Below, in pieces: positions 2,930 through 25,690 of a DNA stretch of 64,000 nucleotides. The stretch comes from Ianthella basta (taxonomy: Eukaryota > Porifera > Demospongiae > Verongiida > Ianthellidae): positions 1 to 64,000 of the forward strand of contig OZ025882.1 of the NCBI GenBank assembly GCA_964019415.1. The letters are read 5' to 3'. Below the pieces are notes generated by a model. The model did not search any database, was not told where the DNA came from, and saw only the letters and a program-made list of their open reading frames with translations. Position 1 is the first letter of the stretch, and every line of letters starts with the position of its first letter. The translations under genes and the position numbers were made by a program.

Positions 2930-2930
2930 T

Positions 2931-3068: not shown

Positions 3069-3086
3069 CTGTTTTCCTTGCATGAT

Positions 3087-3106
3087 GCACACGCAGATGC
3101 GTGTGC
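3087..3106. other. Near-perfect 9-bp-stem hairpin
   Basis: The sequence gcacacgcagatgcgtgtgc can fold into a 9-bp stem with a 2-base centre (in practice 8 bp with a 4-base loop). It lies just downstream of the possible exon stop. It is G+C-rich within A+T-rich DNA. No T-run follows, so it is not terminator-like. Function unknown. Confidence 0.5.
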
Positions 3107-3898
3107 CAGTATATACCTATATTGATCAACATGATGTAATATTCACTTCTGTTATTGTAAAAAATTCTCAACAACACACTTGTGAATATTTATTTAAGGT
3201 ATGTACTCTCGCCATCAACTTATATAGAATGCAATGCTAACTCAGTCAACTTTTAAATTTTTGATATGCCAAAGTTATTTTAAGGTAAACATTTTTGTAT
3301 GCCCAAAAGTTTTAATTTTAATTTTTTAGTTTCTTATGTATAAATCAAATTTTTAATTTTGCCATAAAGTGTTAAATTATGATACATTGGGATAAATAAT
3401 TGGTCCAATGATCATAATTAGAATGATGGCAGAAAATATCAATTAATGAACTGGTGTTTGAATGAATGTTTCTTATATATTTTATATCTCCAAACATATT
3501 CTTCTACCTTAATTCTGTATCTTTGAAAACTTCTAGCATGTCCATTTTTGTATGTCTAAAATATTTTGTATTTCTAAAATATATGTATCTCTTATTTGTA
3601 TTTAAAACATTTCCTACGCCTAAATTTTTTGTATCTTTAGAACATTTTGATATTCAAATATGTTTTTGTCTTCTAAATTCATTATATTCTCAAAAACATT
3701 TTTGTTAAATTTTTTACTTTTCCAAATTTATTATATCTTTAAATATGTTTTACTGTCCCTAAATTTGCTTATTTAATGTTCTTTTTGTATTTATAAAACA
3801 TTTTATTTCTTAGATTTTTTCTGTTTTGCATTTTCAAACATTCAATTTCTACTTTTAATTTTTGTCTCTAATTTTGGGCCACTCGCTGGTGGAATTTT
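3107..3898. other. A+T-rich DNA with no recognisable gene
   Basis: This stretch is strongly A+T-rich. From about 3460 to 3830 the top strand is T-rich, with loosely repeated TTTTGTAT and CTAAAACAT-like words about 20-40 bases apart, suggesting an old decayed simple repeat. A frame of 80 codons at 3466-3708 is rich in Phe, Leu, Ile and Tyr, simply because of the T-rich composition. I see no RNA gene, no domain and no convincing promoter or polyadenylation signal. Confidence 0.6.
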
Positions 3899-3973
3899 GG
3901 GCCGCAACGGCCCATTTTGTCCACTTTGGACTAGGGATCCCCATCTTTTGGGAATTGCTTCGTCAAGGTAAGT
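3899..3973 (+). other. Hairpin cluster followed by a splice-donor consensus
   Basis: Three short self-complementary elements occur in a row: GGGCCGCAACGGCCC (3899-3913, 6-bp stem), GTCCACTTTGGAC (3919-3931, 5-bp stem) and the palindrome GGGATCCC (3935-3942). They are followed by AAG then GTAAGT at 3965-3973, a full match to a metazoan 5-prime splice site. About 35-40 bases further on is a T-run (TATTTTTCTTG) faintly like an Sm-binding site. The arrangement could be a chance exon end or a decayed small RNA or spliced-leader-like gene. The GGGCC...GGCCC hairpin also links it to the 115-bp repeats downstream. No function is established. Confidence 0.3.
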
Positions 3974-4244
3974 TGATGTCCCTTTAAAAAAATTGCAATT
4001 CCGCGCAGTATTTTTCTTGTGGGGCAAGATTTTCTCAAAAATGGGCCACCATTCAAAAAGTGTTCAGAAGTGCCATTTGAATACACTTTTACAATTTTCA
4101 GACAGATTTAAAATTTTGGGGTTAAATTTTGTCCAAAAGTAGCCCATTTTTTCTTTTACCAAACGCATCCAGACTGGTTCCTTGATGCTTTGCAAGTGTT
4201 TTGACAAGGGTTAGGATTATTATTAAAGAATTTCGCCTCTTTTT
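3974..4244. other. Unassigned A+T-rich spacer
   Basis: No gene, RNA or clear repeat was recognised. It contains one isolated GGGTTAGG (4208-4215), a single telomere-like word in the orientation opposite to the tract at 4728-4752, and isolated GGGCC/GGCCC blocks related to the neighbouring repeats. Confidence 0.5.
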
Positions 4245-4357
4245 GGGCCACAGTGGCCCATTTTTTATTTTTGCTCCAGGGTTGTCCCAATATCACATCT
4301 GATGCATTTTTACCGTTTTGGGTAGAAATCAGGGTTTTTAAAAAATGGGCCATTTTT
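4245..4357 (-). repeat. 115-bp repeat unit, inverted first copy
   Basis: This segment matches the reverse complement of the downstream 115-bp units with moderate divergence. The sequence order here (CAGGGTTGTCCC, then CATCTGATGCA, then TTTTACCGTTTTGGG, then CAGGGTTTTTA) reads as the reverse complement of the unit's AAACCCTGCAATTTTACC to GGGAGACCCTTGGGG stretch. It therefore forms an inverted repeat of about 110-bp arms with the next copy, centred near 4365 on the hairpin GGGCCAAAGTGGCCC. Similar frames on both strands arise from this symmetry and are not evidence of coding. Confidence 0.75.
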
Positions 4358-4727
4358 GGGCCAAAGTGGCCCAAAAGGGTGGCCCATTTTTGGAAACCCT
4401 GCAATTTTACCCCAAATGGTAAATCTGCATCAGACATGTTGTTGGGAGACCCTTGGGGTAAAAAAGGAAAATGGGCCACTTTAGCCCAAAAGGGTGGCCC
4501 ATTTTTGGAAACCCTGCAATTTTACCCCAAATGGTAAATCTGCATCAGACATGTTGTTGGGAGACCCTTGGGGTAAAAAAAGAAAATGGGCCACTTTGGC
4601 CCAAAAGGGTGGCCCATTTTTGGAAACCCAGCAATTTAACCCCAAATGGTAATTCTGCATCAGACATGATGTTGGGAGGCCCTTGGGGTAAAAAAGGAAA
4701 ATGGGCCACTTTGGCCCAAAAGGGTGG
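4358..4727 (+). repeat. 115-bp tandem repeat, three copies plus a partial fourth
   Basis: Direct copies start at 4358, 4473, 4588 and 4703, an exact 115-bp period. Each begins with a hairpin of the form GGGCCA-CTT-TGGCCC (the second has one mismatch), followed by AAAAGGGTGGCCCATTTTTG and a unit body ending in GAGACCCTTGGGGTAAAAAA. The last copy is cut after 25 bp by the telomeric tract. Frames across the array are open because 115-bp units happen to lack stops in places. Family unknown. The inverted partner at 4245-4357 suggests derivation from a foldback or MITE-like element. Confidence 0.9.
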
Positions 4728-4752
4728 CCCTAACCCTAACCCCTAACCCTAA
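4728..4752. repeat. Interstitial telomeric tract (CCCTAA)4
   Basis: Four CCCTAA hexamers with one extra C between the second and third, 25 bp in all. The leftmost CCC is shared with the GGCCC of the truncated 115-bp unit, and the final AA is shared with the LINE sequence that follows. The tract thus sits exactly at the junction between two unrelated sequences. That is the pattern expected when telomeric repeats are captured or added at a repaired break, as opposed to an old fused chromosome end, which would show TTAGGG arrays facing CCCTAA arrays. Confidence 0.9.
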
Positions 4753-4935
4753 GACAGATACCATCCAGTGGCAGACCTAGTATTCTGGCAGGGCTCAGGT
4801 CCTATGCGAAGGGGGCAGGGAAACAGAAGGACATTCCTCAAATCAATCATTAGTGATCTGGGAGGACATATGACTGCTGCAGAAATCTCAAGATGTGCTG
4901 CTGACAGAGACGAATGGAGGGAGCGAATCAACTAG
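4753..4935 (+). pseudogene. LINE ORF fragment, last 60 codons
   Basis: An in-frame stretch of 60 codons ending at TAG 4933-4935 matches the C-terminal 60 residues of the complete LINE ORF on the minus strand at 20321-20503. I found two coding differences: His for Gln four residues in, and Glu for Lys near the end. The 5-prime part of the element is missing. The cut lies at the telomeric tract, not at a usual variable 5-prime truncation next to target DNA. This piece is part of the inverted duplication, so it probably arose by copying the right-hand LINE and not by an independent insertion. Confidence 0.9.
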
Positions 4936-5060
4936 CTACATAGGCCATGCAACTACCAACTTACTGATATTGCACAACTTTCATTGGACATGTGTACACT
5001 ATAGCTTCTTGTATGTAGCCCCGGTGCAATAATAGGCCGACGTATGTATGTATGTATGTA
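4753..5060 (+). mobile_element. 5-prime-truncated LINE end with tetranucleotide tail
   Basis: Coding remnant (4753-4935), a 3-prime untranslated region of about 105 bp, and a (GTAT)n tail of about 19 bp (5042-5060) that runs directly into satellite. It matches the 3-prime end of the complete element at 20196-20508 with two substitutions that I could find. The tail-to-satellite junction is the same as on the right-hand side, confirming that this is a duplicate of one insertion event. Confidence 0.9.
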
Positions 5061-5479
5061 AGATTTGGCAAGATTTGGCAAGGAATGACAAGGTAATATT
5101 TGGCAAGATTAGGCAAGATATGAAAAAGTAAGATTAAGCAAGATTTGGCAAGATATGACAAGGTAAGATTAGTCAAGATTTGGCAAGATATGACAAGGAA
5201 AGATTAAGCAAGATTTGGTAAGAAATGACAAGTTAAGATTTGGCAAGATTTGGCAAGATATGACAAGGTAAGATTCGGCAAGATTTGGCAAGATATGACA
5301 AGGTAAGATTAGTCAAGATTTGGCAAGATCTGAAAAAGTAAGATTAGGTAAGATTTGGCAAGATATGACAATGTAAGATTTGGCAAGATTTGGCAAGATA
5401 TGACAAGGTAAGATTAAGCAAGATTTGGTAAGATATGACAAGGCAAGATTTGGCAAGATTTGGCAAGATATGCAAAAGG

Positions 5480-7459
5480 TAAGATTTGGCAAGATTAGGC
5501 AAGATATGACAAGGTAAGATTAGTCAAGATTTGGCAAGATATGACAAGGTAAGATTTAACAAGATTAGGCAACATTAGACAAGGTAAGATTTGGCAAGAT
5601 TTGGCAAGATATGACAAGGTAAGATAAAGTAAGATTTGGCAAATTATGAAAAAGTAAGATTAGGCAAGATTTGGCAAGATATGACAAGGTAAGATTTAGC
5701 AAGATTTGGCAAGATATGACAAGGTAAGATTTGACAAGATTAGGCAAGATATGACAACTGAAGGTAAGATTAGGCAAGATTAGGCAAGATATGGCAAGGT
5801 AAGATTTGGCAAGATTTGGCTAGATATAACAAGGTAATATTTGGCAAGATTTGGCAAGATATGACAAGGTGAGATTTGGAACGATTTGGCAAGATATGAC
5901 AAGGTAAGATTAGCCAAGATTAGGCAAGATATGACAAGGTAAGATTGGGCAAGATTTGGCAAGATATGACAAGGTAAGAGCAGGCAAGATTTGGTAAGAT
6001 ATGACAAGGTAAGATTCGGCAAGATTTGGCAAGATATGACAAGGTAAGATTTGGCAAGATTTGGCAATATATGACAATGTAAAATTTAGTAAGATTAAGC
6101 AAGATATGACAAGGTAAGATTAGTCATGATTTGGCAAGATATGACAAGGTAAGATTTGGCAAGATTTGGCAAGATATGACAAAGTACGATTTGGCAAGAT
6201 ATGACAAGGTATGATTTGGCAAGATACGACAAGGTATGATCTGGCAAGATATGGCGAGGTAAGATCTGGCAAGATATGACAAGGTAAGATTTGGTAAGGT
6301 TTGGCAAGATATGACAAGGTAAGATTTGGCAAGATTTGGCAAAATATGACAAAGTAAGATTTGGCAAGATTTGGCTAGATATGACAAAGTTGGATTTGGC
6401 AAGATTTAGCAAGATATGACAAGGTAAGATTTTGCAAGATTAGGCAAGATTTGGCAAGATATGACAAGGTAAGATTTGGCAAGATTAGGCAAGATATGAC
6501 AAGGTAAGATTAGTCAAGATTTGGCAAGATATGACAAGGTAAGATTTAACAAGATTAGGCAACATTAGACAAGGTAAGATTTGGCAAGATTTGGCAAGAT
6601 ATGACAAGGTAAGATAAAGTAAGATTTGGCAAATTATGAAAAAGTAAGATTAGGCAAGATTTGGCAAGATATGACAAGGTAAGATTTAGCAAGATTTGGC
6701 AAGATATGACAAGGTAAGATTTGACAAGATTAGGCAAGATATGACAACTGAAGGTAAGATTAGGCAAGATTAGGCAAGATATGGCAAGGTAAGATTTGGC
6801 AAGATTTGGCTAGATATGACAAGGTAATATTTGGCAAGATTTGGCAAGATATGACAAGGTGAGATTTGGAACGATTTGGCAAGATATGACAAGGTAAGAT
6901 TAGCCAAGATTAGGCAAGATATGACAAGGTAAGATTGGGCAAGATTTGGCAAGATATGACAAGGTAAGAGCAGGCAAGATTTGGTAAGATATGACAAGGT
7001 AAGATTCGGCAAGATTTGGCAAGATATGACAAGGTAAGATTTGGCAAGATTTGGCAATATATGACAATGTAAAATTTAGTAAGATTAAGCAAGATATGAC
7101 AAGGTAAGATTAGTCATGATTTGGCAAGATATGACAAGGTAAGATTTGGCAAGATTTGGCAAGATATGACAAAGTACGATTTGGCAAGATATGACAAGGT
7201 ATGATTTGGCAAGATACGACAAGGTATGATCTGGCAAGATATGGCGAGGTAAGATCTGGCAAGATATGACAAGGTAAGATTTGGTAAGGTTTGGCAAGAT
7301 ATGACAAGGTAAGATTTGGCAAGATTTGGCAAAATATGACAAAGTAAGATTTGGCAAGATTTGGCTAGATATGACAAAGTTGGATTTGGCAAGATTTAGC
7401 AAGATATGACAAGGTAAGATTTTGCAAGATTAGGCAAGATTTGGCAAGATATGACAAGG
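5480..7459 (+). repeat. 990-bp tandem duplication in left arm
   Basis: Segments of about 5480-6469 and 6470-7459 are almost identical; one difference is ATATAAC against ATATGAC near 5825 and 6815. The offset is exactly 990 bp, that is 28 units plus one 10-bp subunit, so the join shifted the phase by one subunit. The right arm has one copy (roughly 18790-19776), so the event is a gain on the left or a loss on the right after the inverted duplication. Edges approximate. Confidence 0.85.
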
Positions 7460-7689
7460 TAAGATTTGGCAAGATTTGGCAAGATATGACAAGGTAAGAT
7501 TTGGTAAGGTTTGGCAAGATATGACAAGGTAAGATTTGGCAAGATTTGGCAAAATATGACAAAGTAAGATTTGGCAAGATTTGGCAAGTTATGACAAAGT
7601 TGGATTTGGCAAGATTTAGCAAGATTTGGCAAGATATGACAAAGTAAGATTTGGCAAGATTTAGCAAGATATGACCACGTAAGATTTGG

Positions 7690-9025
7690 CAAGATATGAC
7701 AAGGTAAGATCTGGCAAGATACGACAAGGTAAGATCTGGCGAGATATGACAAGGTAAGATTTGGCAAGATTTGGCAAGATATGACAAGGTAAGATTTGGC
7801 AAGATACGACAAGGTATGATCTGGAAAGATGTGACAAAGTTGGATTTGGCAAGATTTAGCAAGATTTGGCAAGATATGACAAGGTACGATTTGTCAAGAT
7901 TTAACAAGATATGACCACGTAAGATTTGGCAAGATATGACAAGGTAAGATCTGGCAAGATACGACAAGGTAAGATCTGGCAAGATATGACGAGGTAAGAT
8001 TTTGCAAGATTTTGCAAGATCTGGCAAGGTAAGATAAGGCAATATTTGGCAGGATATGACAGGAAATATTTGGCAAGATTTGGCAATATATGAAAAGGTA
8101 AGATTTGGCAAGATTTGGCAGGATATGACAAAGTAAGATTTGGCAAGATTTGGCACGATATGACAAAGTAAGATTAGGCATGATTTGGCAAAATATGGCA
8201 AGGTAAGATTTGGCAAGATTTGGCGAGATATGACAAGGTAAGATTTGGCAAGATTTGGCAAGATATGACAAGGTAAGATTTGGCAAGATACGACAAGGTA
8301 TGATCTGGAAAGATGTGACAAAGTTGGATTTGGCAAGATTTAGCAAGATTTGGCAAGATATGACAAGGTACGATTTGTCAAGATTTAACAAGATATGACC
8401 ACGTAAGATTTGGCAAGATATGACAAGGTAAGATCTGGCAAGATTTAACAAGATATGACCACGTAAGATTTGGCAAGATATGACAAAGTAAGATTAGGCA
8501 TGATTTGGCAAGATATGACAAGGTAAGATTTGGAAAGATTTGGCGAGATATGACAAGGTAAGATTTGGCAAGATTTGGCAAGATATGACAAGGTAAGATT
8601 TGGCAAGATACGACAAGGTATGATCTGGAAAGATGTGACAAAGTTGGATTTGGCAAGATTTAGCAAGATTTGGCAAGATATGACAAGGTACGATTTGTCA
8701 AGATTTAACAAGATATGACCACGTAAGATTTGGCAAGATATGACAAGGTAAGATCTGGCAAGATACGACAAGGTAAGATCTGGCAAGATATGACGAGGTA
8801 AGATTTTGCAAGATTTTGCAAGATCTGGCAAGGTAAGATAAGGCAATATTTGGCAGGATATGACAGGAAATATTTGGCAAGATTTGGCAATATATGAAAA
8901 GGTAAGATTTGGCAAGATTTGGCAGGATATGACAAAGTAAGATTTGGCAAGATTTGGCACGATATGACAAAGTAAGATTAGGCATGATTTGGCAAAATAT
9001 GGCAAGGTAAGATTTGGCAAGATTT
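7690..9025 (+). repeat. 804-bp offset duplication with a nested third copy, left arm
   Basis: The variant-rich segment beginning with GATACGACAAGGTATGATC occurs at 7801, 8285 and 8605. The first and third are 804 bp apart and their homology continues to about 8220 and 9025. The middle copy is partial. In the right arm the corresponding block (around 18030-18560) has a single copy of the longer segment. 804 is 23 units minus one base. Edges approximate. Confidence 0.75.
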
Positions 9026-12000
9026 GGCAAGATATGACAAGGTAAGATTTGGCAAGACTTGGCAAGATATGACAAGGTAAGATTTGGAAAGATTTGGCGA
9101 GATATGACAAGGTAAGATTTGGCAAGATTTGGCAAGATATGACAAGGTAAGATTAAGCAAGATTTGGCAAGATATGAAAAAGTAAGAATAGGCAAGATTT
9201 GGCAAGATATGACAACTTAAAGGTAAGACTTGGCAAGATTTGGCAAGATAGGATAAGGTAAGATAAAGCAAGATTTGGCAAGATATGACAAGGTAAGATT
9301 AAGCAAGATTAGGCAGGATATGACAAGGTAAGATTTGGCAAGATTTGGCAAGATTTGGTAAGATATGACAAGGTAAGATGCGGCAAGATTTGGCAGGATA
9401 GGACAAGGTAAGTTTTGGCAGGATTGGGCAAGATATGACAAGGTAATATTAGGCAAGATTTGGCAAAATATGACAAGATAAGATTTGGCAAGATTTGGCA
9501 AGATATGACAAGGTAAGATTAAGCAAGATTTGGTAAGACATGTCAAGGTAAGAATTGGCAAGATATGGCAAGATATGACAAGGTAAGATTCGGCAATATT
9601 TGGCAAGATATGACAAGGTAAGATTAGTCAAGATTTGGCAAGATATGACAAGGTAAGATTTGGCAAGATTAGGCAAGATTTGGCGAGCTATGACAAGGTA
9701 AGATTTGGCAAGATTTTGCAAGATATGACAAGGTAAGATTTGGCAAGATTTGGCAAGATATGACAAGGTAAGATTAAGCAAGATTTTGTAAGATATGACA
9801 AGGTAAGATTTGGCAAGATTTGGCAAGATATGACAAGATAAGATTTGGCAAGATTTGGCAAGATATGACAAAGTAAGATTAGTCAAGATTAGGCAAGATA
9901 TGACAAGGTAAGATTTGGCAAGATTAGGCAAGATTTGGCGAGATATGACAAGGTAAGATTTGGTAAGATTTGGCAAGATTTGACAAGGTAAGATTAAGCA
10001 AGATTTGGCAAGATATGAAAAGTAAGATAAGGCAAGATTAGGCAAGATATGACAACAGAAGGTAAGATTTGGCAAGATTTGGCAAGATATGACATGGTAA
10101 GATTAAGCAAAATTTGGCTAGATATGAAAAAGTAAGATTAGGCAAGATTTGGCAAGATATGACAAGTTAAGATTTGGCAAGATTAAGCAAGATATGAAGG
10201 TAAGATTAGGCAAGATTTGGCAAGATATGACAAGATAAGATATGGCAAGACTTGGCAAGAGATGACAAGAGAATATTTGGCAAGATTTGGCAAGATATGA
10301 TAAGGTAAGATTCGGCAAGAATTGATAAGATATGACAAGGTAATATTTGGCCAGATTTGGCAAGATATGACAAGATAAGATTTGGCAAGATTTGGCAAGA
10401 TATGACAAGGTAAAATTAAGCAAGATTTGGCAAGATATGACAAGGTAATGTTTGGCAAAATTTGGCAAGATATGACAAGGTGAGATTAAGCAAGATTTGG
10501 CAAGATATGAAAAAGTAAGATTAGGCAAGATTTGGTAAAATATGACAAGGTAAGCTTTGGCAAGATATGACAAGGTAAGATTAGGCAAGATTTGGCAAGA
10601 TATGACAAGGTAAGATTTGGCAAGATTTGGCAAAATATGACAATGCAATATTTGGCAAGATCTGGCAATATATGATAAGGTAAGATTTGGCAAGATTTGG
10701 CAAGATATGATAAGGTAATATTTGGCATGATTTGGCAAGATATGAGGAGATAAGATTTGGCAAGATTAGGCAAGATATGACAAGGTAATATTTGGCAAGA
10801 TCTGGCAATATATGACAAGGTAAGATTTGGCAAGATTTGGCAAGATATGATAAGGTAATATTTGGCAAGATTTGGCAAGATATGAGAAGATGAGATTTGG
10901 CAAGATTTGGCAAGATATGACAAGGTAAGATTTGGCAAGATCTGGCAATATATGACACGATAAGATTTGGCTAGATTTGGCAAGATATGATAAGGTAATA
11001 TTTGGCAAGATTTGGCAAGATATGAGAAGATAAGATTTGGCAAGATTTGGCAAGATATGGCAAGGTAATATTTGGCAAGATCTGGCAAGATATGACAAGA
11101 TAAGATTTGGCAAGATTTGGCAAGATATGATAAGGTAATATTTGGCAAGATTTGGCAAGATATGAGAAGATAAGATTTGGCAAGATATGGCAAGATATGA
11201 CAAGGTAAGATTAAGCAAGATTTGGCAATATATGAAAAAGTAAGATTAGGCAAGATTTGGCAAGATATGACATGGTAAGATTTGGCAAGATTTAGCAAGA
11301 TATGACAGGGTAAGATTTGGCAAGATTTGGAAAGATATGAGAAGATAAGATTTGGCAAGATTTGGCAAGATATGACAAGGTGAGATTAAGCAAGATTTGG
11401 CAAGATATAAAAAGTAAGATTAGGCAAGATTTGATAAAATATGACAATGTAAGCTTTGGCAAGATATGACAAGGTAAGATTAGTCAAGATTTGGCAAGAT
11501 ATGACAAGGTAAGATTTGGCAAGATTTGGCAAGATATGACAAGGTCATATTTGGCAAGATCTGGCAATATATGACAAGGTAAGATTTGGCAAGATTTGGC
11601 AAGATATGAGAAGGCAAGATTAAGCAAGACTTGGCAAGATACGAAAAGGAAGAATACGCAAGATTTGGCAAGAAATGACAACTTAAAGGTAAGACTTGAC
11701 AAGATTTGGCAAGATATGACAAGGTAAGATCAGGCAAGATTTGGCAAGATATCACAAGGTAAGATTTGGCAAGATTAGGCAAGGTATGACAAGGTAAGAT
11801 TCGGCAAGATTTTGTATGATATGATAAGGTAAGATTAGGCAAGATTAGGAAAGATATGACAAGGTAAGATTTGGTAAGATTTGGCAAGATATGACAAGGT
11901 AATATTTGGCAAGATTTGGCAAGATATGACAAGATAAGATTTGGTGAGATTTGGCAAGATATGAAGGTAAGATTAAGCAAGATTTGGTAATTTATGACAA

Positions 12001-12838
12001 GGTAAGAATTGGAAAGATTTGGCAAGATATGACAAGGTAAGATTAAGCAAGATTTGATAAGATATGACAAGGTAAGATTTGGCAAGATTTGGCAAGATAT
12101 AACAAGGTAAGATTTGGCAAGATATGGCAAGGTAAGATTAGTCAAGATTTGTCAAGATATGACAAGGTAAGATTTAGCAAGATTAGGCAAGATTTGGCGA
12201 GTTATAACAAGGTAAGAATATGTAAGATTTGGTAAGATATGACAAGGTAAGATGAAGCAAGATTTGGCAAGATATGAAAAGTAAGATAAGGCAAGATTTT
12301 GCAAAATATGACAACTGAAGATAAGATTTGGCAAGATTTTGCAAGATATGACATGGTAAGATTAAGCAAGATTTGGCTAGATATGAAAAAGTAAGATTAG
12401 GCAAGATTTGGCAAGATATGACAAGTTAAGATTTGGCAAGATTAAGCAAGATATGAAGGTAAGATTAGGCAAGATTTGGCAAGATATAACAAGATAAGAT
12501 TTGGCAAGAATCTGCAAAATATGACAAGGGAATATTTGGCAAGATTTGGCAAGATATGACAAGGTAAGATTCGGCAAGAATTGGCAAGATATAACAAGGT
12601 AATATTTGGGAAGATTTGGCAAGATATGACAAGGTAAGATTAGTCAAGATTTGGCAAGATATGACAAGGTAAGATTTGGCAAGATATGGCAAGATATGAT
12701 AAGGTAATATTTGGCAAGATTTGGCAAGATATGAGAAGATAAAATTAGGCAAGATTTGGCAAGATATGACAAGGTAATGTTTGGCAAGATTTGGCAAGAT
12801 ATGACAAGGTGAGATTAAGCAAGATTTGGCAAGATATG

Positions 12839-14321
12839 AATAAGTAAGATAAAGGAAGATTTCGGAAGATATGACAAGGTAAGCTTTTGCAAGATTTGAG
12901 TCAAGATTTGGCAAGTTATGACAAGATAAGATTTGGCAAGATTTGGCAAGATATGAAGGTAAGATTTGGCAGGATTTGGCAATATATGACAAGGTGAGAT
13001 TAAGCAAGATTTGGCAAGATATGAAAAAGTAAGATTAGGCAAGATTTGGCAAGATATGACAAGGTAAGATTAGGCAAGATTTGGCAAGATATGACAAGGT
13101 AAGAATTGGCAAGATTTGGCAAGATATGACAAGGTAAGATTTGGCAAGATTTGGCAAGATATGAGAAGGTAAGATTAAGCAAGATTTGGCTAAATATGAA
13201 AAGGAAGAATAGGCAAGATTTGGCAAGATATGACAACTTAAAGGTAAGACTTGGCTAGATTTTGGCAAGATATGACAAGGTAAGATCAGGCAAGATTTGG
13301 CAAGATATGACAAGGTAAGATTTGGCAAGATTAGGCAAGATATGACAAGGTAAGATTTGGCAAGATTTGGCAAGATTTGGTAAGATATGACAAGGTAAGA
13401 TTCGGCAAGATTTGGCAAGATATGTCAAGGTAAGATTAGGCAAGATTTGGAAAGATATGACAAGGTAAGATTTGGCAAGATTTGGCAAGATATGACAAGG
13501 TAATATTTGGCAAGATTTGGCAAGATATGACAAGATAAGATTTGGCAAGATTTGGCAAGATATGAAGGTAAGATTAAGCAAGATTTGGTAAGATATGACA
13601 AAGTAAGAATTGGAAAGATTTGGCAAGATATGACAAGGTAAGATTTGTCAAGATTTGGCAAGATATGAGAAGGCAAGATTAAGCAAGATTTGGCAAGATA
13701 TGAAAAAGTAAGATTAGGCAAGATTTTGCAAGATATGACATGGTAAGATTTCGCAAGATATGACAGGGTAAGATTTGACAAGATTTGGCAAGATATGACA
13801 AGGTAAGATTAGGCAAGATTTGGCAAGATATGACAAGGTAAGATTAGGCAAGATTTGGCGAGATGTGACAAGGTAAGATTAGTCAAGATTTGGCAAGATT
13901 TAAAAAAGTAAGAATAAGCAAGATTTGGCAAAATAAGACAACGTAAGATCAGGCAAGATTTGGCAAGATATGACAAGGTAAGATTTGGCAAGATTAGGCA
14001 AGATATGACAAGGTAAGATTTGGCAAGATTTGGCCAGATTTGGCAAGATATGACAAGGTAAGATTCGGCAAAATTAGGCAAGAAATGACAAATCTTGCCA
14101 AACATTACCTTATCATATCTTGCCAAATCTTGCCAAATCTTACCTTGGCATATCTTACCAAATCTAGCCTAATCTTACCTTGTCATATCTTGCCAAATCT
14201 TGCAAAATCTTACCTTGTCATATCTTGCCAAATCTTGCCGAATCTTACCTTGTCATATCTTACTAAATTTTGCCAAATCTTGCCAAATCTTACCTTGTCA
14301 TATCTTGCCAAATCTTACCTT
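12839..14321. repeat. Palindrome spacer containing the orientation switch
   Basis: Satellite DNA between the two arms. The part up to 14090 is in forward orientation. Its reverse complement is collinear with 47050-48000; for example, the variants at 13809-14080 correspond to about 47100-47300, and those at 13255-13626 to about 47380-47800. At 14089-14091 the last forward unit (ATGACAA) and the first reversed unit (CCAAATCTTG) share CAA, so the join has about 3 bp of microhomology. Confidence 0.7.
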
Positions 14322-17300
14322 CATATCTTGCCAAATCTTGCTTAATCTCACCTTGTCATATCTTGCCAAATCTTGCCAAACATTACCTTGTCATATCTTG
14401 CCAAATCTTGCCAAATTTTATCTTCTCATATCTTGCCAAATCTTGCCAAATATTACCTTATCATATCTTGCCATATCTTGCCAAATCTTACCTTGTCATA
14501 TCTTGCCAAATCTTGACTAATCTTACCTTGTCATATCTTGCCAAATCTTCCCAAATATTACCTTGTTATATCTTGCCAATTCTTGCCGAATCTTACCTTG
14601 TCATATCTTGCCAAATCTTGCCAAATATTCCCTTGTCATATCTTGCAGATTCTTGCCAAATCTTATCTTGTTATATCTTGCCAAATCTTGCCTAATCTTA
14701 CCTTCATATCTTGCTTAATCTTGCCAAATCTTAACTTGTCATATCTTGCCAAATCTTGCCTAATCTTAAGTTTTCATATCTAGCCAAATCTTGCTTAATC
14801 TTACCATGTCATATCTTGCAAAATCTTGCCAAATCTTATCTTCAGTTGTCATATTTTGCAAAATCTTGCCTTATCTTACTTTTCATATCTTGCCAAATCT
14901 TGCTTCATCTTACCTTGTCATATCTTACCAAATCTTACATATTCTTACCTTGTTATAACTCGCCAAATCTTGCCTAATCTTGCTAAATCTTACCTTGTCA
15001 TATCTTGACAAATCTTGACTAATCTTACCTTGCCATATCTTGCCAAATCTTGCCAAATCTTACCTTGTTATATCTTGCCAAATCTTGCCAAATCTTACCT
15101 TGTCATATCTTATCAAATCTTGCTTAATCTTACCTTGTCATATCTTGCCAAATCTTTCCAATTCTTACCTTGTCATAAATTACCAAATCTTGCTTAATCT
15201 TACCTTCATATCTTGCCAAATCTTACCAAATCTTATCTTGTCATATCTTGCCAAATCTTGCCAAATATTACCTTGTCATATCTTGCCAAATCTTACCAAA
15301 TCTTACCTTGTCATATTTTTCCTAATCTTGCCTAATCTTACCTTATCATATTATACAAAATTTTGCCGAATCTTACCTTGTCATATCTTGCCTAATCGTG
15401 CCAAATCTTACCTTGTGATATCTTGCCAAATCTTGCCAAATATGACCTTGTCATATCTTGCCAAATCTTGCCAAATCTTACCTTGTCATATCTTGCCAAA
15501 TCTTGACTAATCTTACCTTGTCATATCTTGCCAAAGCTTACATTGTCATATTTTATCAAATCTTGCCTAATCTTACTTTTTATATCTTGCCAAATCTTGC
15601 TTAATCTCACCTTGTCATATCTTGCCAAATCTTGCCAAATCTTATCTTCTCATATCTTTCCAAATCTTGCCAAATCTTACCCTGTCATATCTTGCCAGAT
15701 CTTGCCAAATCTTACCATGTCATATCTTGCCAAATCTTGCCTAATCTTACTTTTTCATATATTGCCAAATCTTGCTTAATCTTACCTTGTCATATCTTGC
15801 CATATCTTGCCAAATCTTATCTTCTCATATCTTGCCAAATCTTGCCAAATATTACCTTATCATATCTTGCCAAATCTTGCCAAATCTTATCTTGTCATAT
15901 CTTGCCAGATCTTGCCAAATATTACCTTGCCATATCTTGCCAAATCTTGCCAAATCTTATCTTCTCATATCTTGCCAAATCTTGCCAAATATTACCTTAT
16001 CATATCTTGCCAAATCTTGCCAAATCTTATCTTGTCATATATTGCCAGATCTTGCCAAATATTACCTTGTCATATCTTGCCAAATCTTGCCAAATCTCAT
16101 CTTCTCATATCTTGCCAAATCTTGCCAAATATTACCTTATCATATCTTGCCAAATCTTGCCAAATCTTACCTTGTCATATATTGCCAGATCTTGCCAAAT
16201 ATTACCTTGTCATATCTTGCCTAATCTTGCCAAATCTTATCTCCTCATATCTTGCCAAATCATGCCAAATATTACCTTATCATATCTTGCCAAATCTTGC
16301 CAAATCTTACCTTATCATATATTGCCAGATCTTGCCAAATATTGCATTGTCATATTTTGCCAAATCTTGCCAAATCTTACCTTGTCATATCTTGCCTAAT
16401 CTTACCTGGTCATATCTTGCCAAAGCTTGCCTTGTCTTATTTTACCAAATCTTGCCTAATCTTACTTTTTCATATCTTGCCAAATCTTGCTTAATCTCAC
16501 CTTGTCATATCTTGCCAAATTTTGCCAAACATTACCTTGTCATATCTTGCCAAATCTTGCTTAATTTTACCTTGTCATATCTTGCCAAATCTTGCCAAAT
16601 CTAATCTACTCATATTTTGCCAAATCTTGCCAAAAATTACCTTATCATATCTTGCCAAATCTTGCCAAATCTTATCTTGTCATATCTTGCCAAATCTGGC
16701 CAAATATTACCTTGTCATATCTTATCAATTCTTGCCGAATCTTACCTTATCATATCTTGCCAAATCTTGCCAAATATTCTCTTGTCATATCTTGCCAAGT
16801 CTTGCCAAATCTTATCTTGTCATATCTTGCCAAATCTTGCCTAATCTTACCTTCATATCTTGCTTAATCTTGCCAAATCTTAACTTGTCATATCTTGCCA
16901 AATCTTGCCTAATCTTACTTTTTTATATCTAGCCAAATTTTGCTTAATCTTACCATGTCATATCTTGCCAAATCTTGCCAAATCTTACCTTCAGTTGTCA
17001 TATCTTGCCTAATCTTGCCTTATCTTACTTTTCATATCTTGCCAAATCTTGCTTAATCTTACCTTGTCAAATCTTGCCAAATCTTACCAAATCTTACCTT
17101 GTCATATCTCGCCAAATCTTGCCTAATCTTGCCAAATCTTACCTTGTCATATCTTGCCTAATCTTGACTAATCTTACCTTGTCATATCTTGCCAAATCTT
17201 GCCAAATCTTATCTTGTCATATCTTGCCAAATCTTGCCAAATCTTACCTTGTCATATCTTACAAAATCTTGCTTAATCTTACCTTGTCATATCTTGCCAA

Positions 17301-20198
17301 ATCTTGCCAAATCTTACCTTGTCATATCTTGCAAAATCTTGCCAAATCTTACCTTGTCATAGCTCGCCAAATCTTGCCTAATCTTGCCAAATCTTACCTT
17401 GTCATATCTTGCCAAATCTTGACTAATCTTACCTTGTCATATCTTGCCAAATATTGCCGAATCTTACCTTGTCATATCTTGCCATATCTTGCCAATTCTT
17501 ACCTTGACATGTCTTACCAAATCTTGCTTAATCTTACCTTGTCATATCTTGCCAAATCGTGCCAAATCTTATCTTGTCATATTTTGCCAAATCTTGCCAA
17601 ATATTACCTTGTCATATCTTGCCTAATCTTGCCAAAACTTACCTTGTCCTATCCTGCCAAATCTTGCCGCATCTTACCTTGTCATATCTTACCAAATCTT
17701 GCCAAATCTTGCCAAATCTTACCTTGTCATATCTTGCCCAATCTAACTTAATCTTACCTTGTCATATCTTGCCAAATCTTGCTTTATCTTACCTTATCCT
17801 ATCTTGCCAAATCTTGCCAAGTCTTACCTTTAAGTTGTCATATCTTGCCAAATCTTGCCTATTCTTACTTTTTCATATCTTGCCAAATCTTGCTTAATCT
17901 TACCTTGTCATATCTTGCCAAATCTTGCCAAATCTTACCTTGTCATATCTTGCCAAATCTTTCCAAATCTTACCTTGTCATATCTTGCCAAGTCTTGCCA
18001 AATCTTACCTTGTCATATCTTGCCAAATCTTGCCAAATCTTACCTTGCCATATTTTGCCAAATCATGCCTAATCTTACTTTGTCATATCGTGCCAAATCT
18101 TGCCAAATCTTACTTTGTCATATCCTGCCAAATCTTGCCAAATCTTACCTTTTCATATATTGCCAAATCTTGCCAAATATTTCCTGTCATATCCTGCCAA
18201 ATATTGCCTTATCTTACCTTGCCAGATCTTGCAAAATCTTGCAAAATCTTACCTCGTCATATCTTGCCAGATCTTACCTTGTCGTATCTTGCCAGATCTT
18301 ACCTTGTCATATCTTGCCAAATCTTACGTGGTCATATCTTGTTAAATCTTGACAAATCGTACCTTGTCATATCTTGCCAAATCTTGCTAAATCTTGCCAA
18401 ATCCAACTTTGTCACATCTTTCCAGATCATACCTTGTCGTATCTTGCCAAATCTTACCTTGTCATATCTTGCCAAATCTTGCCAAATCTTACCTTGTCAT
18501 ATCTCGCCAGATCTTACCTTGTCGTATCTTGCCAGATCTTACCTTGTCATATCTTGCCAAATCTTACGTGGTCATATCTTGCTAAATCTTGCCAAATCTT
18601 ACTTTGTCATATCTTGCCAAATCTTGCTAAATCTTGCCAAATCCAACTTTGTCATAACTTGCCAAATCTTGCCAAATCTTACTTTGTCATATTTTGCCAA
18701 ATCTTGCCAAATCTTACCTTGTCATATCTTGCCAAACCTTACCAAATCTTACCTTGTCATATCTTGCCAAATCTTGCCAAATCTTACCTTGTCATATCTT
18801 GCCAAATCTTGCCAAATCTTACCTTGTCATATCTTGCCAAATCTTGCCTAATCTTGCAAAATCTTACCTTGTCATATCTTGCTAAATCTTGCCAAATCCA
18901 ACTTTGTCATATCTAGCCAAATCTTGCCAAATCTTACTTTGTCATATTTTGCCAAATCTTGCCAAATCTTACCTTGTCATATCTTGCCAAACCTTACCAA
19001 ATCTTACCTTGTCATATCTTGCCAGATCTTACCTCGCCATATCTTGCCAGATCATACCTTGTCGTATCTTGCCAAATCATACCTTGTCATATCTTGCCAA
19101 ATCGTACTTTGTCATATCTTGCCAAATCTTGCCAAATCTTACCTTGTCATATCTTGCCAAATCATGACTAATCTTACCTTGTCATATCTTGCTTAATCTT
19201 ACTAAATTTTACATTGTCATATATTGCCAAATCTTGCCAAATCTTACCTTGTCATATCTTGCCAAATCTTGCCGAATCTTACCTTGTCATATCTTACCAA
19301 ATCTTGCCTGCTCTTACCTTGTCATATCTTGCCAAATCTTGCCCAATCTTACCTTGTCATATCTTGCCTAATCTTGCCTAATCTTACCTTGTCATATCTT
19401 GCCAAATCTTGCCAAATATTACCTTGTCATATCTAGCCAAATCTTGCCAAATCTTACCTTGCCATATCTTGCCTAATCTTGCCTAATCTTACCTTCAGTT
19501 GTCATATCTTGCCTAATCTTGCCAAATCTTACCTTGTCATATCTTGCCAAATCTTGCTAAATCTTACCTTGTCATATCTTGCCAAATCTTGCCTAATCTT
19601 ACTTTTTCATAATTTGCCAAATCTTACTTTATCTTACCTTGTCATATCTTGCCAAATCTTGCCAAATCTTACCTTGTCTAATGTTGCCTAATCTTGTTAA
19701 ATCTTACCTTGTCATATCTTGCCAAATCTTGACTAATCTTACCTTGTCATATCTTGCCTAATTTTGCCAAATCTTACCTTTTGCATATCTTGCCAAATCT
19801 TGCCAAATCTTACCTTGTCATATCTTACCAAATCTTGCTTAATCTTACCTTGTCATATCTTGCCAAATCTTGCCAAATCTTACATTGTCATATCTTGCCA
19901 AATCTTACCTAATCTTACTTATTCAGATCTTGCCAAATCTTGACTAATCTTACCTTGTCATATCTTGCCAAATCTTGCCGAATCTTACCTTGTCATATCT
20001 TGCCAAATCTTGCCAAATCTTAACTTGTCATTTCTTACCAAATCTTGCTTAATCTTTCCTTGTCATATCTTGCCAAATCTTGACTAATCTTACCTTGTCA
20101 TATCTTGCCAAATCTTGCTTAATCTTACTTTTTCATATCTTGCCTAATCTTGCCAAATATTACCTTGTCATTCCTTGCCAAATCTTGCCAAATCTTAC
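14091..20198 (-). repeat. 35-bp satellite, reversed block up to the LINE
   Basis: The same satellite, now reading as ATCTTGCCAA, ATCTTGCCAA and ATCTTACCTTGTCAT on the top strand. It runs from the orientation switch at 14090/14091 to the tail of the complete LINE. From about 14322 it mirrors the left arm. Top-strand frames are all open here for the reason given for the forward block and are not genes. Confidence 0.97.
20183..20198. other. LINE target-site duplication, 3-prime-end side
   Basis: tcttgccaaatcttac next to the LINE tail is repeated at 23567-23582 next to the LINE 5-prime end. Such words are common in this satellite, but the paralogous empty site at 51059-51074 has the word once, between the same flanks. 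A duplication of up to 16 bp is therefore supported. Confidence 0.7.
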
Positions 20199-20215
20199 AT
20201 ACATACATACATACG
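20196..20215 (-). repeat. LINE 3-prime tail, TGTA tetranucleotide repeat
   Basis: Four to five TGTA/TACA repeats at the 3-prime end of the element, directly abutting satellite. Short microsatellite tails in place of poly(A) are known for RTE-type elements. The same tail is kept in the duplicate at 5042-5060. Confidence 0.85.
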
Positions 20216-20320
20216 TCGGCCTATTATTGCACCGGGGCTACATACAAGAAGCTATAGTGTACACATGTCCAATGAAAGTTGTGCAATATCAGTAAGTTGG
20301 TAGTTGCATGGCCTATGTAG

Positions 20321-23300
20321 CTAGTTGATTCGCTTCCTCCATTCGTCTCTGTCAGCAGCACATCTTGAGATTTCTGCAGCAGTCATATGTCCTCCCAGAT
20401 CACTAATGATTGATTTGAGGAATGTCCTTCTGTTTCCCTGCCCCCTTCGCATAGGACCTGAGCCCTGCCAGAATACTAGGTCTGCCACTGGTTGGTATCT
20501 GTCTTTGATGCAGCGAGCAGCATGCCCAACAAAATGTAGGCGCCGGTCTCGTATGATGTCATCTGCTCGTGGTAGGTCTCCGTACAGCTCTGCATTAGTG
20601 ATGCGATCTCTCCAGTGCACATTCAGGGCTTTGCGCAGCAAGTTAGAGTAGGTGCCACAGATTCTTGATGTCAGCTGCTCAGTCAAGGTCCAGGTTTCTG
20701 CTCCATAAAGCAGAACACTCTCTACTGTGGCTTTGAACACTCTGATCTTAGTGTTACAGCTGCACCCAGACTTCCACCCCCTCCACAATTTGTTTGCTGC
20801 TTCGTATGCACATGCACGGCGTACCACAAAGTCCTTGTTTGATGACATAATCCAGCTGCCAAGGTACCTGAAATCAGCTACCTCAGCAATTTCCCCATCA
20901 CTCACTCTCAGTGTAGGGTGAGTGTCGCCAGAAAAGTCACCTATTCTGATGTACTCAGTCTTCTTCATGTTGATGTGCAAGCCAACAGCAGCCGCATTCT
21001 CCTCAACTGCTGTGAGTAGGGTCTGTGCGTTGGCCATGGTGCCAGACAGGAGGGCGATGTCATCTGCGAAGTCCAAATCTGTCACATATTTGGCTGGGTG
21101 TCGTCGCGATAGGCGCTTTTGGATCATGAATCCAACACTGTCATCTGGAATAGCAGCTCTGAGGACATAGTCCACAACAATGACAAACAGGTAGGGGGCC
21201 AGTGTATCACCTTGTAGGACACCTGCTTCCACCTGAAAGTCTGCACTGCAACCATCTGCAGTCACCACTCGTGCGGCTGTTCCTGAGTACATCGACATTA
21301 CTGCAGTTACTATCTTGGTGGGGAGACCGTAGTTGTACAGGACTTCTTCCATTCTGGTTCTCGAGATGGAGTCAAATGCTTTTGAAAAGTCAATGAATGT
21401 AACCACACACTGGCATTCCTGCCTCACCGTACACTCTTCAATGATTCGCCGTAGGGCTAGGATATGTTGGACGGTAGATCTGCCTACACGAAACCCATTC
21501 TGATTGGGTCGCAGCAAGGGTTCAACATGTGGTTGGATACGGTTGAGCAATATCCTGTTGTACAGTTTAGCAGCAAGTGACATGAGTGCAATACCCCGAT
21601 AGTTTGCACACACTGAGGCATCCCCCTTCTTGAAGATGGGAATGATGCCAGACACCTTCCATTCATCAGGCACCACTCCAGTCTCAAATGCTTGATTCAG
21701 TACTGGCAACAGGATCTCGTGTATGCCAGTGAGCTTAAGCAGCTCAGGTGGAATAGAGTCCATGCCACAGGCCTTTCCTGTCTTCAACTGTGAGGCGGCA
21801 GTCGCTATTTCATTTAGTGAGATGGAACCCTCATCAATAGGCAGCATACCCTCATGCACTTGCAGCACTGGCAGAGCAACATCTGGTGGTTTAGATGCTA
21901 AAAGCTGCATGAAGTGGTCACACCACAGAGTCAATCTGTCCTGCTGAGAGTCTGCTGCAATGCTACAAACTTGTCTACACTTCCTCCCTGTCATTCGATC
22001 AATCACTTTCCATGCAGCACTATGCTTTCCATCCTTGCTAGCCTGCTCCACCTCACTGGCCATACTTGCGTAGAACACCTCCTCTTTGTCTACATACAGT
22101 TGTGCTAGAGATTTTGTTGCATCAGCCATCTTTTGCATTGAGTCATCACTTCTCACCTCCTTGTATGTTCTTTGAGCCTCCGCTACCAGATCACGCGCTG
22201 TGATGATGTCAGTGTCTAACCAAGGCTTGGAGCGTACAAATTGTGGTTTGACTGGAAGATGAGTTTCACATGCAGTTTTGGCAGCAGCAACAAATAGCTC
22301 ATAAGATGGTGTATCCCCAGTGGCAGCACAAACATCGGACTCCACTAACTCAGCAATGGGGGCCTCCTTCAACCTTGCATAATCTAAGGAGGGCACCCTG
22401 TTGGTCTTCTTTGGAGTAGCTAACTTCATGGTCACTCTAATTTTCATTAGTCGATGGTCTGATGCTGGAGCAACCACACGGTATAGTTGGCAGTCAAGTA
22501 CAGAGCTAGCAAACTTATGTCTTGTGAGGCAATGGTCGATTCTGGATTGAAATCCTTGTGGTCCACAATGGGTGTACCACTGTCTGCGAGGTTTATCCTT
22601 GGCACACTGGGCAGAGAATAGACCCTGCTCCTCCATAAACTCAGCCATTCGTTCTCCATTGTCGGAGGCACTTGAGTGTATTGGGAACTTACAGAAACGG
22701 GAGTCTAGTCGTGCATTCATATCACCAAGAACAAAGAGACGGTCTCTCTTAGGTAAGGGATCTAGGGTCTGATGTAGCTGTGAGTAGAAGAGATCTTTAG
22801 TAGCCGAGTCAGCTACATTGGTAGGGGCATAGGCACAAACCAGATGAGTCCTAGGAGCTCCTTTAGTGTGGCCAGAAAACTGGAGTCGCATGACTCTATC
22901 TGACTTGTAATCTACTCTATCAAGACATTTGAAGGCTATTGGAGACACCAGAAACCCTATACCTCCTGAACCACTATCATCCGCAGTGTGAGTAACTAAC
23001 CTCCATCCGTCTGGTAAATGCAAAACTCTAGTGTAGGAGCTTGGACTACTGCTGTTAGAATGACAAATCCTGTGTTCTTGGATAGCACACACATCAATTC
23101 TCTTCTTCTCTAGAAATCCAACTAGCTCTTGCTGTCTCCACTTGGCCTTTAGAGTGCGAACGTTGTAAGTCGCGATGCGGGTGACGATTCTTGGACAAAA
23201 CACTTTAGGCTTTCTTCCATAACCACTCTCGACCGGCACTGTAGGAATTGTGCGACGCTCAGGGACGTCACCAACCTGAGCCAGGATCTCCTTCGCTGTG

Positions 23301-23476
23301 GTACACGTTTGAAGGTGTGCACGCTTCTCGCTCCAGGACCGCGGCCTATTCCAGCTACCAGCTGCCGCCCTCCAGGCTGCCCGGCTGGCCTTTCTTCGTA
23401 CAACTGCGTCCATCGAGCGCTTCCCTCTGCCACAGTGTCTCCGCTGCCTATACGTAGCCTCCGCAGCTGGTGCCAT
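20321..23476 (-). CDS. LINE ORF: endonuclease/reverse transcriptase
   Basis: A protein of 1,051 aa if started at the first ATG (23474-23476). A TTG precedes it and the frame stays open upstream only to a TAA at 23528-23530, with no earlier ATG. Residues 1-95 form a basic, Ala/Arg-rich leader. Residues about 98-345 are an APE-like endonuclease with YNVRTL (Asn105), QEH (Glu134), GDMNA (Asp252, Asn254), SRID (Asp314) and SDH (339-341), all expected catalytic positions. The reverse transcriptase spans about 570-840, with NQNGFR (658-663), FIDFSKAFD (first Asp 696), GVLQGD (752-757) and FADD (Asp805, Asp806). A thumb-like C-terminal part includes RRLHFVGHAAR (978-988). Such a protein nicks target DNA and primes reverse transcription there. 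No internal stop or frameshift is seen. Database entries for such proteins are often mislabelled craniofacial development protein 2-like. Confidence 0.95.
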   Translation of the reverse strand: MAPAAEATYRQRRHCGRGKRSMDAVVRRKASRAAWRAAAGSWNRPRSWSEKRAHLQTCTTAKEILAQVGDVPERRTIPTVPVESGYGRKPKVFCPRIVTRIATYNVRTLKAKWRQQELVGFLEKKRIDVCAIQEHRICHSNSSSPSSYTRVLHLPDGWRLVTHTADDSGSGGIGFLVSPIAFKCLDRVDYKSDRVMRLQFSGHTKGAPRTHLVCAYAPTNVADSATKDLFYSQLHQTLDPLPKRDRLFVLGDMNARLDSRFCKFPIHSSASDNGERMAEFMEEQGLFSAQCAKDKPRRQWYTHCGPQGFQSRIDHCLTRHKFASSVLDCQLYRVVAPASDHRLMKIRVTMKLATPKKTNRVPSLDYARLKEAPIAELVESDVCAATGDTPSYELFVAAAKTACETHLPVKPQFVRSKPWLDTDIITARDLVAEAQRTYKEVRSDDSMQKMADATKSLAQLYVDKEEVFYASMASEVEQASKDGKHSAAWKVIDRMTGRKCRQVCSIAADSQQDRLTLWCDHFMQLLASKPPDVALPVLQVHEGMLPIDEGSISLNEIATAASQLKTGKACGMDSIPPELLKLTGIHEILLPVLNQAFETGVVPDEWKVSGIIPIFKKGDASVCANYRGIALMSLAAKLYNRILLNRIQPHVEPLLRPNQNGFRVGRSTVQHILALRRIIEECTVRQECQCVVTFIDFSKAFDSISRTRMEEVLYNYGLPTKIVTAVMSMYSGTAARVVTADGCSADFQVEAGVLQGDTLAPYLFVIVVDYVLRAAIPDDSVGFMIQKRLSRRHPAKYVTDLDFADDIALLSGTMANAQTLLTAVEENAAAVGLHINMKKTEYIRIGDFSGDTHPTLRVSDGEIAEVADFRYLGSWIMSSNKDFVVRRACAYEAANKLWRGWKSGCSCNTKIRVFKATVESVLLYGAETWTLTEQLTSRICGTYSNLLRKALNVHWRDRITNAELYGDLPRADDIIRDRRLHFVGHAARCIKDRYQPVADLVFWQGSGPMRRGQGNRRTFLKSIISDLGGHMTAAEISRCAADRDEWRKRIN

Positions 23477-23566
23477 CAAGGTTGCACCGCGCGGTTCGCC
23501 AATAGCCAGGGGAAATTCAGGAGATACTTACTTGGGGAGGGCAGCCATTTTTCCGCCCCGCCCCCC
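23477..23566 (-). promoter_or_regulatory. LINE 5-prime leader with GC-box-like start
   Basis: About 90 bp upstream of the ORF on the minus strand. It begins with a G-rich block containing GGGGCGG (top-strand CCGCCCCGCCCCCC at 23553-23566), which matches the Sp1/GC-box core and stands out strongly from the A+T-rich satellite. Autonomous LINEs need an internal promoter, and this is the only candidate visible. The match is suggestive only. Confidence 0.4.
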
Positions 23567-23582
23567 TCTTGCCAAATCTTAC
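23567..23582. other. LINE target-site duplication, 5-prime-end side
   Basis: Second copy of tcttgccaaatcttac flanking the element. See the evidence for the copy at 20183-20198. Confidence 0.7.
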
Positions 23583-24056
23583 CTTGTCATATTTTGCCAA
23601 ATCTTGCTTAATCTTACCTTGTCATATCTTGCCTAATCTTGCCAAATCTTGCCGAATCTTACCTTGCCATATCTTTCCAAATCTTGCCAAATCTTATCTT
23701 GTCATATCTTGCCTAATCTTGCCAAATCTTACCTTGTCATATCTTGCCAAATCTTGCCAAATATTACCTTGTCATATGTTGCCATATCTTGCCAAATATT
23801 ACCTTGTCATATCTTGCAAAATCTTGCCAATCTTGTCATATCTTAACAAATCTTGTCAAATCTTACCTTGTCATATCTTGCCAAATCTTGCTTAATCTTG
23901 CTTAATCTTACCTCGTCATATCTTGCCAAATCTTGCCAAATCTTACCTTGTCATATCTCGCTAAATCTTGCCTAATCTTGCCAAATCTTACCTTGTCATA
24001 TCTTGCCAAATCTAGCCTACTCTTACATTTTCATATCTTGCCAAATCTTGCCAAAT

Positions 24057-25690
24057 CTTACCTTGTCATATCTTGCCAAATCGTACTTTGTCATATCTTG
24101 CCAAATCTTGCCAAATCTTACCTTGTCATACCTTGCCAAATCATGACTAATCTTACCTTGTCATATCTTGCTTAATCTTACTAAATCTTACATTGTCATA
24201 TCTTGCCAAATCTTGCCAAATCTTACCTTGTCATATCTTGACAAATCTTGCCGAATCTTACCTTGTCATATCTTACCTAATCTTGCCAAAACTTACCTTG
24301 TCATATCTTGCCAAATCTTGCCCAATCTTACCTTGTCATATCTTGCCTAATCTTGGCTAATCTTACCTTGTCATATCTTGCCAAATCTTGCCTGATCTCA
24401 CCTTGCCATATCTTGCCTAATCTTGCCTCATCTTACCTTCAGTTGGCATATCTTGCCTAATCTTGCATAATCTTACCTTGTCATATCTCGCCAAATCTTG
24501 CTAAATCTTACCTTGTCATATCTTGCCAAATCTTGCCAGATCTTACTTTTCATATCTTGCTAAATCTTGCTTAATCTTACCTTGTCACATCTAACCAAAT
24601 CTTGCCAAATCTTACCTTGCCATATCTTGCCAAATCTTACCTAATCTTACTTTTTCATATTTTGCCAAATCTTACTTTATCTTACCTTGTAATATCTTGC
24701 CAAATCTTGCCAAATCTTACCTTGTCATATGTTGCCTAATCTTGTTAAATCTTACCTTGTCATATCTTGCCAAATCTTGACTAATCTTACCTTGTTATAT
24801 CTTGCCAATTCTTGCCGAATCTTACCTTTTGCATATCTTGCCAAATCTTCCCAAATCTTACCTTGTCATATCTTACCAAATCTTGCTTAATCTTACCTTG
24901 TCATATCTTGCCAAGTCTTGCCAAATCTTACCCTGTCATATCTTGCCAAATCTTACCTAATCTTACTTTTTCATATCTTGCCAAATCTTGACTAATCTTA
25001 CCTTGTCATATCTTGCCAAATCTTGCCGAATCTTACCTTGTCATATCTTGCCAAGTCTTGCCAAATCCTAACTTGTCATTTCTTACCAAATCTTGCTTAA
25101 TCTTTCCTTGTCATATCTTGCCAAATCTTGACTAATCTTACCTTGTCATATCTTGCCAAATCTTGCTTAATCTTACTTTTTCATATCTTGCCTAATCTTG
25201 CCAAATATTACCTTGTCATTCCTTGCCAAATCTTGCCAAATCTTACCTTGTCATATCTTGCCTAATCTTGCCAAATCTTGCCGAATCTTACCTTGCCATC
25301 TCTTTCCAAATCTTGCCAAATCTTGCCAAATCTTATCTTGTCATATCTTGCCTAATCTTGCCAAATCTTACCTTGTCATATCTTGCCAAATCTTGCCAAA
25401 TATTACCTTGTCATATCTTGCCATATCTTGCCAAATATTACCTTGTCATATCTTGCGAAATCTTGCCAAATATTACCTTGTCATATCTTAACAAATCTTG
25501 CCAAATCTTACCTTGTCATATCTTGCCAAATCTTGCTTAATCTTGCTTAATCTTACCTCGTCATATCTTGCCGAATCTTGCCAAATCTTACCTTGTCATA
25601 TCTCGCTAAATCTTGCCTAATCTTGCCAAATCTTACCTTGTCATATCTTGCCAAATCTAGCCTAATCTTACTTTTTTATATCTTACCAAA
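24057..25690 (-). repeat. Higher-order copy of the LINE-flanking satellite segment
   Basis: This block repeats, in direct orientation, the satellite on both sides of the LINE. Around 24080-25214 it matches 19100-20198, and from 25214 on it matches the sequence after the LINE (23583 on). Removing the LINE gives a tandem period of about 1.6 kb. At 25214-25245 the LINE is absent, and one 35-bp unit next to the site is also missing. Edges approximate. Confidence 0.75.

Follow-up and report, generated by a model that had tools for sequence, protein, structure and literature searches.

Repeats, satellite and retrotransposon at the start of contig C15

The window, which is the whole stretch of DNA that was analyzed (64,000 bp), corresponds to positions 1-64000 of C15, a contig of 7,398,520 bp in an assembly of 209 Mb and 96 contigs. 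Its outer edge consists of a plus-strand array of a 21-bp repeat (1..2509, detected with TRF), followed by an AT-rich stretch without strand (2534..4366) that lies between this array and a second one, 3.2 plus-strand copies of a 115-bp repeat (4367..4730, TRF). In the open reading frame listing of the window, no frame of 90 aa or more was found in 2510-4155. With up to three mismatches allowed, part of the 115-bp unit matches the genome at 180 places and, among the 100 matches listed, those on large contigs lie at most 0.3 Mb from a contig end. The array runs into an interstitial telomere tract of 25 bp (4728..4752, plus strand), which is of the CCCTAA type with an extra C in one unit and has the orientation of a left chromosome end. 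The tract overlaps the 115-bp unit by CCC and the retrotransposon sequence on its other side by AA. Allowing one mismatch, the border between the 115-bp repeat and the tract was detected at two places in the assembly, the two ends of C15.

For comparison, 42 other contig ends were inspected (22 left and 20 right), two of the left ones over 10 kb and all others over 1.5 kb. Of these, six carry at least 35 telomere hexamers (C2, C3 and C8 on the left; C2, C9 and C11 on the right), and the 21-bp array was present at the left end of C3 only. There, the order is telomere repeat, inverted telomere-like block and an array of the 21-bp type, which suggests that C15 probably starts slightly inside a telomere and that, judged by its repeats, the contig end corresponds to a chromosome end. 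The telomere repeat and the inverted telomere-like block of C3 stand face to face. The left end of C10 is all N, as is C15:300001-301000, sequence that is either withheld or a gap.

Inward of the tract, the plus strand carries the last 308 bp or so of a retrotransposon including its ATGT tail (4751..5059), cut off at the telomere tract. It is followed by a 35-bp satellite with its G-rich strand on the plus strand, which forms the rest of a left, inverted arm (5060..12840, from TRF and alignment) and a left centre of 1248 bp that has no near copy in the right arm (12841..14088, plus strand). At 14088..14089 the satellite flips strand; as read at the junction, there may be a 3-bp overlap (CAA). 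On the minus strand follow a right centre of 231 bp, which has the orientation of the array and is not a near copy of the left side (14089..14319), the right arm, presumed to be the original (14320..20196, from alignment), a complete non-LTR retrotransposon (20197..23566, from reading the sequence) and a 35-bp satellite array that runs inward in one orientation to the end of the window (23567..64000, TRF). In 124 kb read from the left end of C15, the G-rich word was on the plus strand in the 4-14 kb bins only. The array keeps a single orientation to 124 kb, and three probes of 500 bp, placed as far in as 152.5 kb, agree with it. The C15 satellite has the opposite orientation at 160 and 180 kb, which places a second strand change between 152.5 and 160 kb. 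The 35-bp satellite was also found in the middle of C1 (16.6 Mb), at about 8.27 Mb, and a single 24-base word of this satellite has 17,746 occurrences across the genome.

The complete element holds an uninterrupted frame of 1052 aa (20321..23479, minus strand, listed from a TTG) in which an AP-type endonuclease (PF03372) and a reverse transcriptase domain (PF00078) are joined, and it is flanked by a 14-bp target-site duplication that was read by eye (20183-20196 and 23567-23580). By its two domains in one frame and its target-site duplication the element can be classed as a non-LTR retrotransposon (LINE); its RTE-like size and simple tail may hint at the RTE clade of LINEs. As the frame is uninterrupted, the element may have been active recently.

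The inverted arms and their centre

According to the initial annotation, 4751-12838 and 14322-20508 were inverted copies. Affine local alignment in eight blocks recovered this pair within a few bases, aligning 4751-12840 with 20505-14320. The arms differ by 40 mismatches in 6106 aligned bases (0.66%) in addition to satellite indels, which supports the proposed recent inverted duplication anchored in one LINE, and the two differences that had been counted in the LINE part were found exactly, at 4764/20492 and 4921/20335. The longest exact inverted match between the arms is 792 bp, and a chain alignment that includes the centre gave 65 mismatches in 6299 bases. Gaps between the arms range from 10 to 955 bp, the largest being extra pieces of 955 and 804 bp in the left arm; these satellite gaps account for the difference in arm size (8.1 and 6.2 kb).

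Since the full element is present in the right copy and its last 308 bp only in the left, with flanking satellite identical in kind, the left arm is judged to be the derived copy. Independent insertion into the two arms was rejected, the flanking satellite being the same. The same insertion block also occurs at 113 kb of C15 (the insertion at C15:113246-113555), once on C7 and twice on C22 at a distance of 42 kb, each time with the same flanking satellite. The 3'-side flank is shared by all six copies compared (two in the window, C15:113 kb, two on C22, one on C7). The 5'-side flank was compared in three copies, the right one of the window and the two of C22, and agrees in all of them; for the C15:113-kb copy the search word gave no 5' side. 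One insertion has thus apparently spread between chromosomes by block duplication.

Two arms are found at each end of C15 (see below), and these four differ from each other by 0.32-0.87%. The four other blocks differ from them by 1.2-6.8%, the C22 blocks being compared over 3.4 kb only. Near the 3' end of the element all four C15 arms read AATAAT and the four other copies TGTAAT. From the lower divergence between the arms and this shared marker, the inverted arm is best read as copied from a local source. The possibility that the left arm was taken from one of the four other blocks compared was rejected, as these are more distant. Fixed-length cuts of at least 3.2 kb gave 0.23-2.25% between the C15 arms; the figure of 0.32-0.87% is preferred because cuts through duplicated satellite force bad ends.

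Further towards the centre, alignment is limited to 231 bp in three blocks, which contain 13 mismatches and are broken by large gaps; this is close to the background of the array. The two central pieces are matched best by other parts of the array, at about 93-96%, and the nearest match of the left one is C15:104613-105803 (95.9%). At up to three mismatches the flip junction occurs at exactly two places in the assembly, the two C15 ends. The possible CAA overlap at the flip is suggested by comparison with related units, made by eye. The left spacer is collinear with the block at C15:104.6-113 kb; its last part shows 16 differences in 1028 positions, and several earlier 500-bp bins differ by 5-14%. 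The C7 block fits the left and the right central piece alike (scores 820 and 821). After these mixed fits, the idea that the left spacer is clearly an older continuation of the arm was withdrawn; the origin favoured below does not depend on it.

Fold-back priming predicts a spacer of a single orientation with homology beginning at the flip, and U-type sister fusion predicts arms without a spacer between them. Neither was seen: the present structure, which may have been altered since, lacks such a single-orientation spacer, and 1248 and 231 bp without match lie between the arms. As it stands, the centre agrees with no one-step model, and simple fold-back and simple sister fusion each need an extra change.

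A second copy at the opposite end of C15

A search with the telomere tract and the element fragment as query gave 51 candidates, of which 40 were scored. Two of the 40, one in the window and one at the opposite end of C15, include the telomere tract. The two ends align over 60,928 bases with 342 mismatches (0.56%), and when 18 kb more of the right end was included the alignment continued over at least 86.5 kb. A 500-bp probe 98 kb from the right end is not the 35-bp satellite. Two pieces further in, one at 220 kb from the left end and one at 160 kb from the right, had no near-identical partner among the candidates scored; their other matches, partial or full-length, are 71-90% identical. A palindrome of the whole contig was rejected, as C15:500001-501000 has one full-length match, which is itself.

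The flip junction lies inside an exact match of 1140 bp between the two ends, and in the centre 26 of 207 columns are arm-specific with the same separation at both ends. Since the junction is identical and the central columns are common to both, the palindrome is judged to have formed before the two ends split. In the outer part of the arms 56 of 5962 columns vary. Seven of them group the sequences by arm, three by end and none crosswise; private sites number 19 in the right and 12 in the left arm of the window, and nine in the right and five in the left arm at the other end, with one further site in three states. Five of the seven arm-grouping sites fall within about 350 bp, so that they may represent few events. 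The three end-grouping sites are confined to 241 bp (probability 0.008 by resampling), a clustering that one arm-to-arm conversion would give. Over whole arms the distances are 0.44% between the left and 0.53% between the right arms, and 0.66% and 0.32% within the ends; these values favour neither grouping and do not order the events. The palindrome and the split of the ends would be close in time, a point on which site counts alone are weak.

The longer of the two extra pieces in the left arm of the window (955 bp; 1025 bp in the end-to-end alignment) is absent from the other end and was probably gained later. The 804-bp piece is mostly present there, with only about 250 bp missing.

The second copy may reflect an exchange between the ends or a second haplotype that was misplaced, and the steady 0.56% with indels fits both. 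That both ends of C15 truly carry a palindrome-capped block of about 86-98 kb, unrelated further in, so that an end mended through fold-back and a telomere seal replaced the opposite end of its chromosome, is a tentative proposal that we regard as less likely than not. If true, the scar of a broken end would have become a spreading chromosome cap, a natural case of this kind.

Origin of the palindrome and relation to known systems

As in terminal inverted duplications, a near-identical, inverted and adjacent copy lies at what the repeats indicate to be a chromosome end, and this copy ends at telomere repeats, the 25-bp tract. Fold-back priming, sister-chromatid fusion and break-induced replication had been named in the initial annotation as possible routes, and the palindrome is of a kind that these can make. 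That account was right about the duplication; the telomere repeats at the end of the left arm, the subtelomeric setting at the contig end and the asymmetric centre were absent from it.

The reading that we favour, and hold to be fairly probable, is a broken chromosome end that was healed. The terminal 35-bp satellite array would have broken and been repaired by fold-back or sister-chromatid fusion near 14088, whereby the adjacent array and part of the embedded retrotransposon were copied in inverted orientation; the copy itself is observed and the route is the conjectural part. The inverted copy would then have ended or broken 308 bp into the retrotransposon, as the truncation against the tract suggests, and have been sealed by a short telomere tract, presumably through telomere addition or capture. 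The 115-bp and 21-bp subtelomere would have been gained afterwards, probably by joining or recombination at the telomere tract. Because 1248 and 231 bp are unmatched beside the flip, an extra step is assumed for the centre: satellite may have been lost or gained later, or the fused ends may already have been different. Finally, the whole end, at least 86 kb, would have come to stand also at the opposite end of C15, by exchange or as a second haplotype placed there. The length of the telomere tract, only 25 bp, counts against a healed end.

An asymmetric centre is easier to accept if the retrotransposon-satellite block was duplicated directly and the distal copy then inverted, without any fold-back. 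Such blocks do repeat in the arrays, twice on C22 42 kb apart, on C7 and at C15:113 kb, and the orientation of the array switches again by 160 kb on C15, so that strand changes occur elsewhere. This course, however, requires two events and leaves the truncation exactly at telomere repeats as a coincidence; moreover, no neighbour in the same orientation was found to be as close as the inverted arm, the 113-kb copy being 5.5-6.8% from the arms of the window. We consider it unlikely.

Under break-induced replication with template switching, one complex event would have produced the inverted block, the tract and the subtelomere, with the sister or another chromosome end as template, as in recombination-based end maintenance. 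At two contig ends the block does adjoin a telomere tract, and the unmatched pieces of 231 and 1248 bp could be extra switches. The border of the tract and the flip junction are, however, found nowhere else in the assembly, the possible overlaps, read by eye, amount to only 2-3 bp, and on sequence alone template switching makes few predictions apart from those of a healed broken end. We consider such an event quite unlikely. What is read directly from the assembly is the inverted copy with its truncation, the tract and the second copy, whereas the break, the route of copying, the sealing and the gain of the subtelomere are conjectural. These observations do not separate fold-back from sister fusion or template switching.

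An assembly or chimeric-read error had also been raised at the outset. A chimeric read is expected to give arms that are identical up to read error. Although a palindrome in satellite DNA at a contig end invites this explanation, and the likeness of both C15 ends over at least 86 kb is itself suspicious, an assembly or fold-back chimeric-read artefact is highly improbable, as the arms are 0.66% apart with indels of 10-955 bp and the junction appears at two places of the assembly, each of the four arms having changes of its own. Assembled twice and with independent differences in its four arms, the palindrome is very probably real. The case is a caution against taking every strand flip in a satellite contig for an error of assembly.

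Returning to the healed broken end, its closest counterparts are human inverted duplications with terminal deletions, for which a fold-back model exists. PMC3907307 describes inverted duplications that stop at a telomere or at a translocated end, some of the telomere junctions having 1-4 bp of microhomology. The C15 structure resembles these cases in its position at an end, its spacer, its telomere or translocated end and, possibly, its little microhomology. Unlike the large gene-bearing segments described there, kilobases of satellite are involved; the spacer is not of a single orientation, and the structure occupies both ends of one contig instead of being a patient variant. Breakage-fusion-bridge with healing by a new telomere was proposed for two mosaic cases of terminal inverted duplication with possible neo-telomeres (PMC2292745), which are cytogenetic and FISH cases whose abstract does not give junctions at base level. 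Yeast palindromes after telomere loss also lie near chromosome ends and were proposed to arise by synthesis from short inverted repeats (PMC4981268), yet in experimental strains without telomere maintenance. The inverted-triplication model resembles the present case as a source of inverted copy-number variants and in the later rearrangement of unstable palindromic junctions; here there is an inverted duplication only.

Joints with a few telomere units are also known from short interstitial telomere tracts inserted during break repair (PMC7215372 and PMC8537989). Those lie at internal vertebrate sites, whereas the C15 tract borders an inverted duplication and adjoins subtelomeric repeats. Literature searches for subtelomeres of sponge or similar satellite type, and for palindromes in satellite subtelomeres, yielded no matching structure that we recognized, which is not proof of absence. 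In the TALT system of elegans, a block with telomere-like sequence is copied to chromosome ends, and in survivors without telomerase to all of them (PMC4595603, PMC9071541). The C15 block was found at two places, the two ends of one contig, and not at many ends; with a long telomere tract at only six of the 42 other contig ends, ends are missing from this comparison.

In the papers cited here, terminal inverted duplications come from patients, cancers and laboratory yeast, and here one is found in nature, in satellite DNA. The break point, the telomere tract and the centre are readable to the base and exist in two diverged copies, which would allow duplication, sealing, subtelomere gain, conversion between arms and transfer to another end to be put in order. 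The type of event is already known; on C15 it is readable base by base in two copies.
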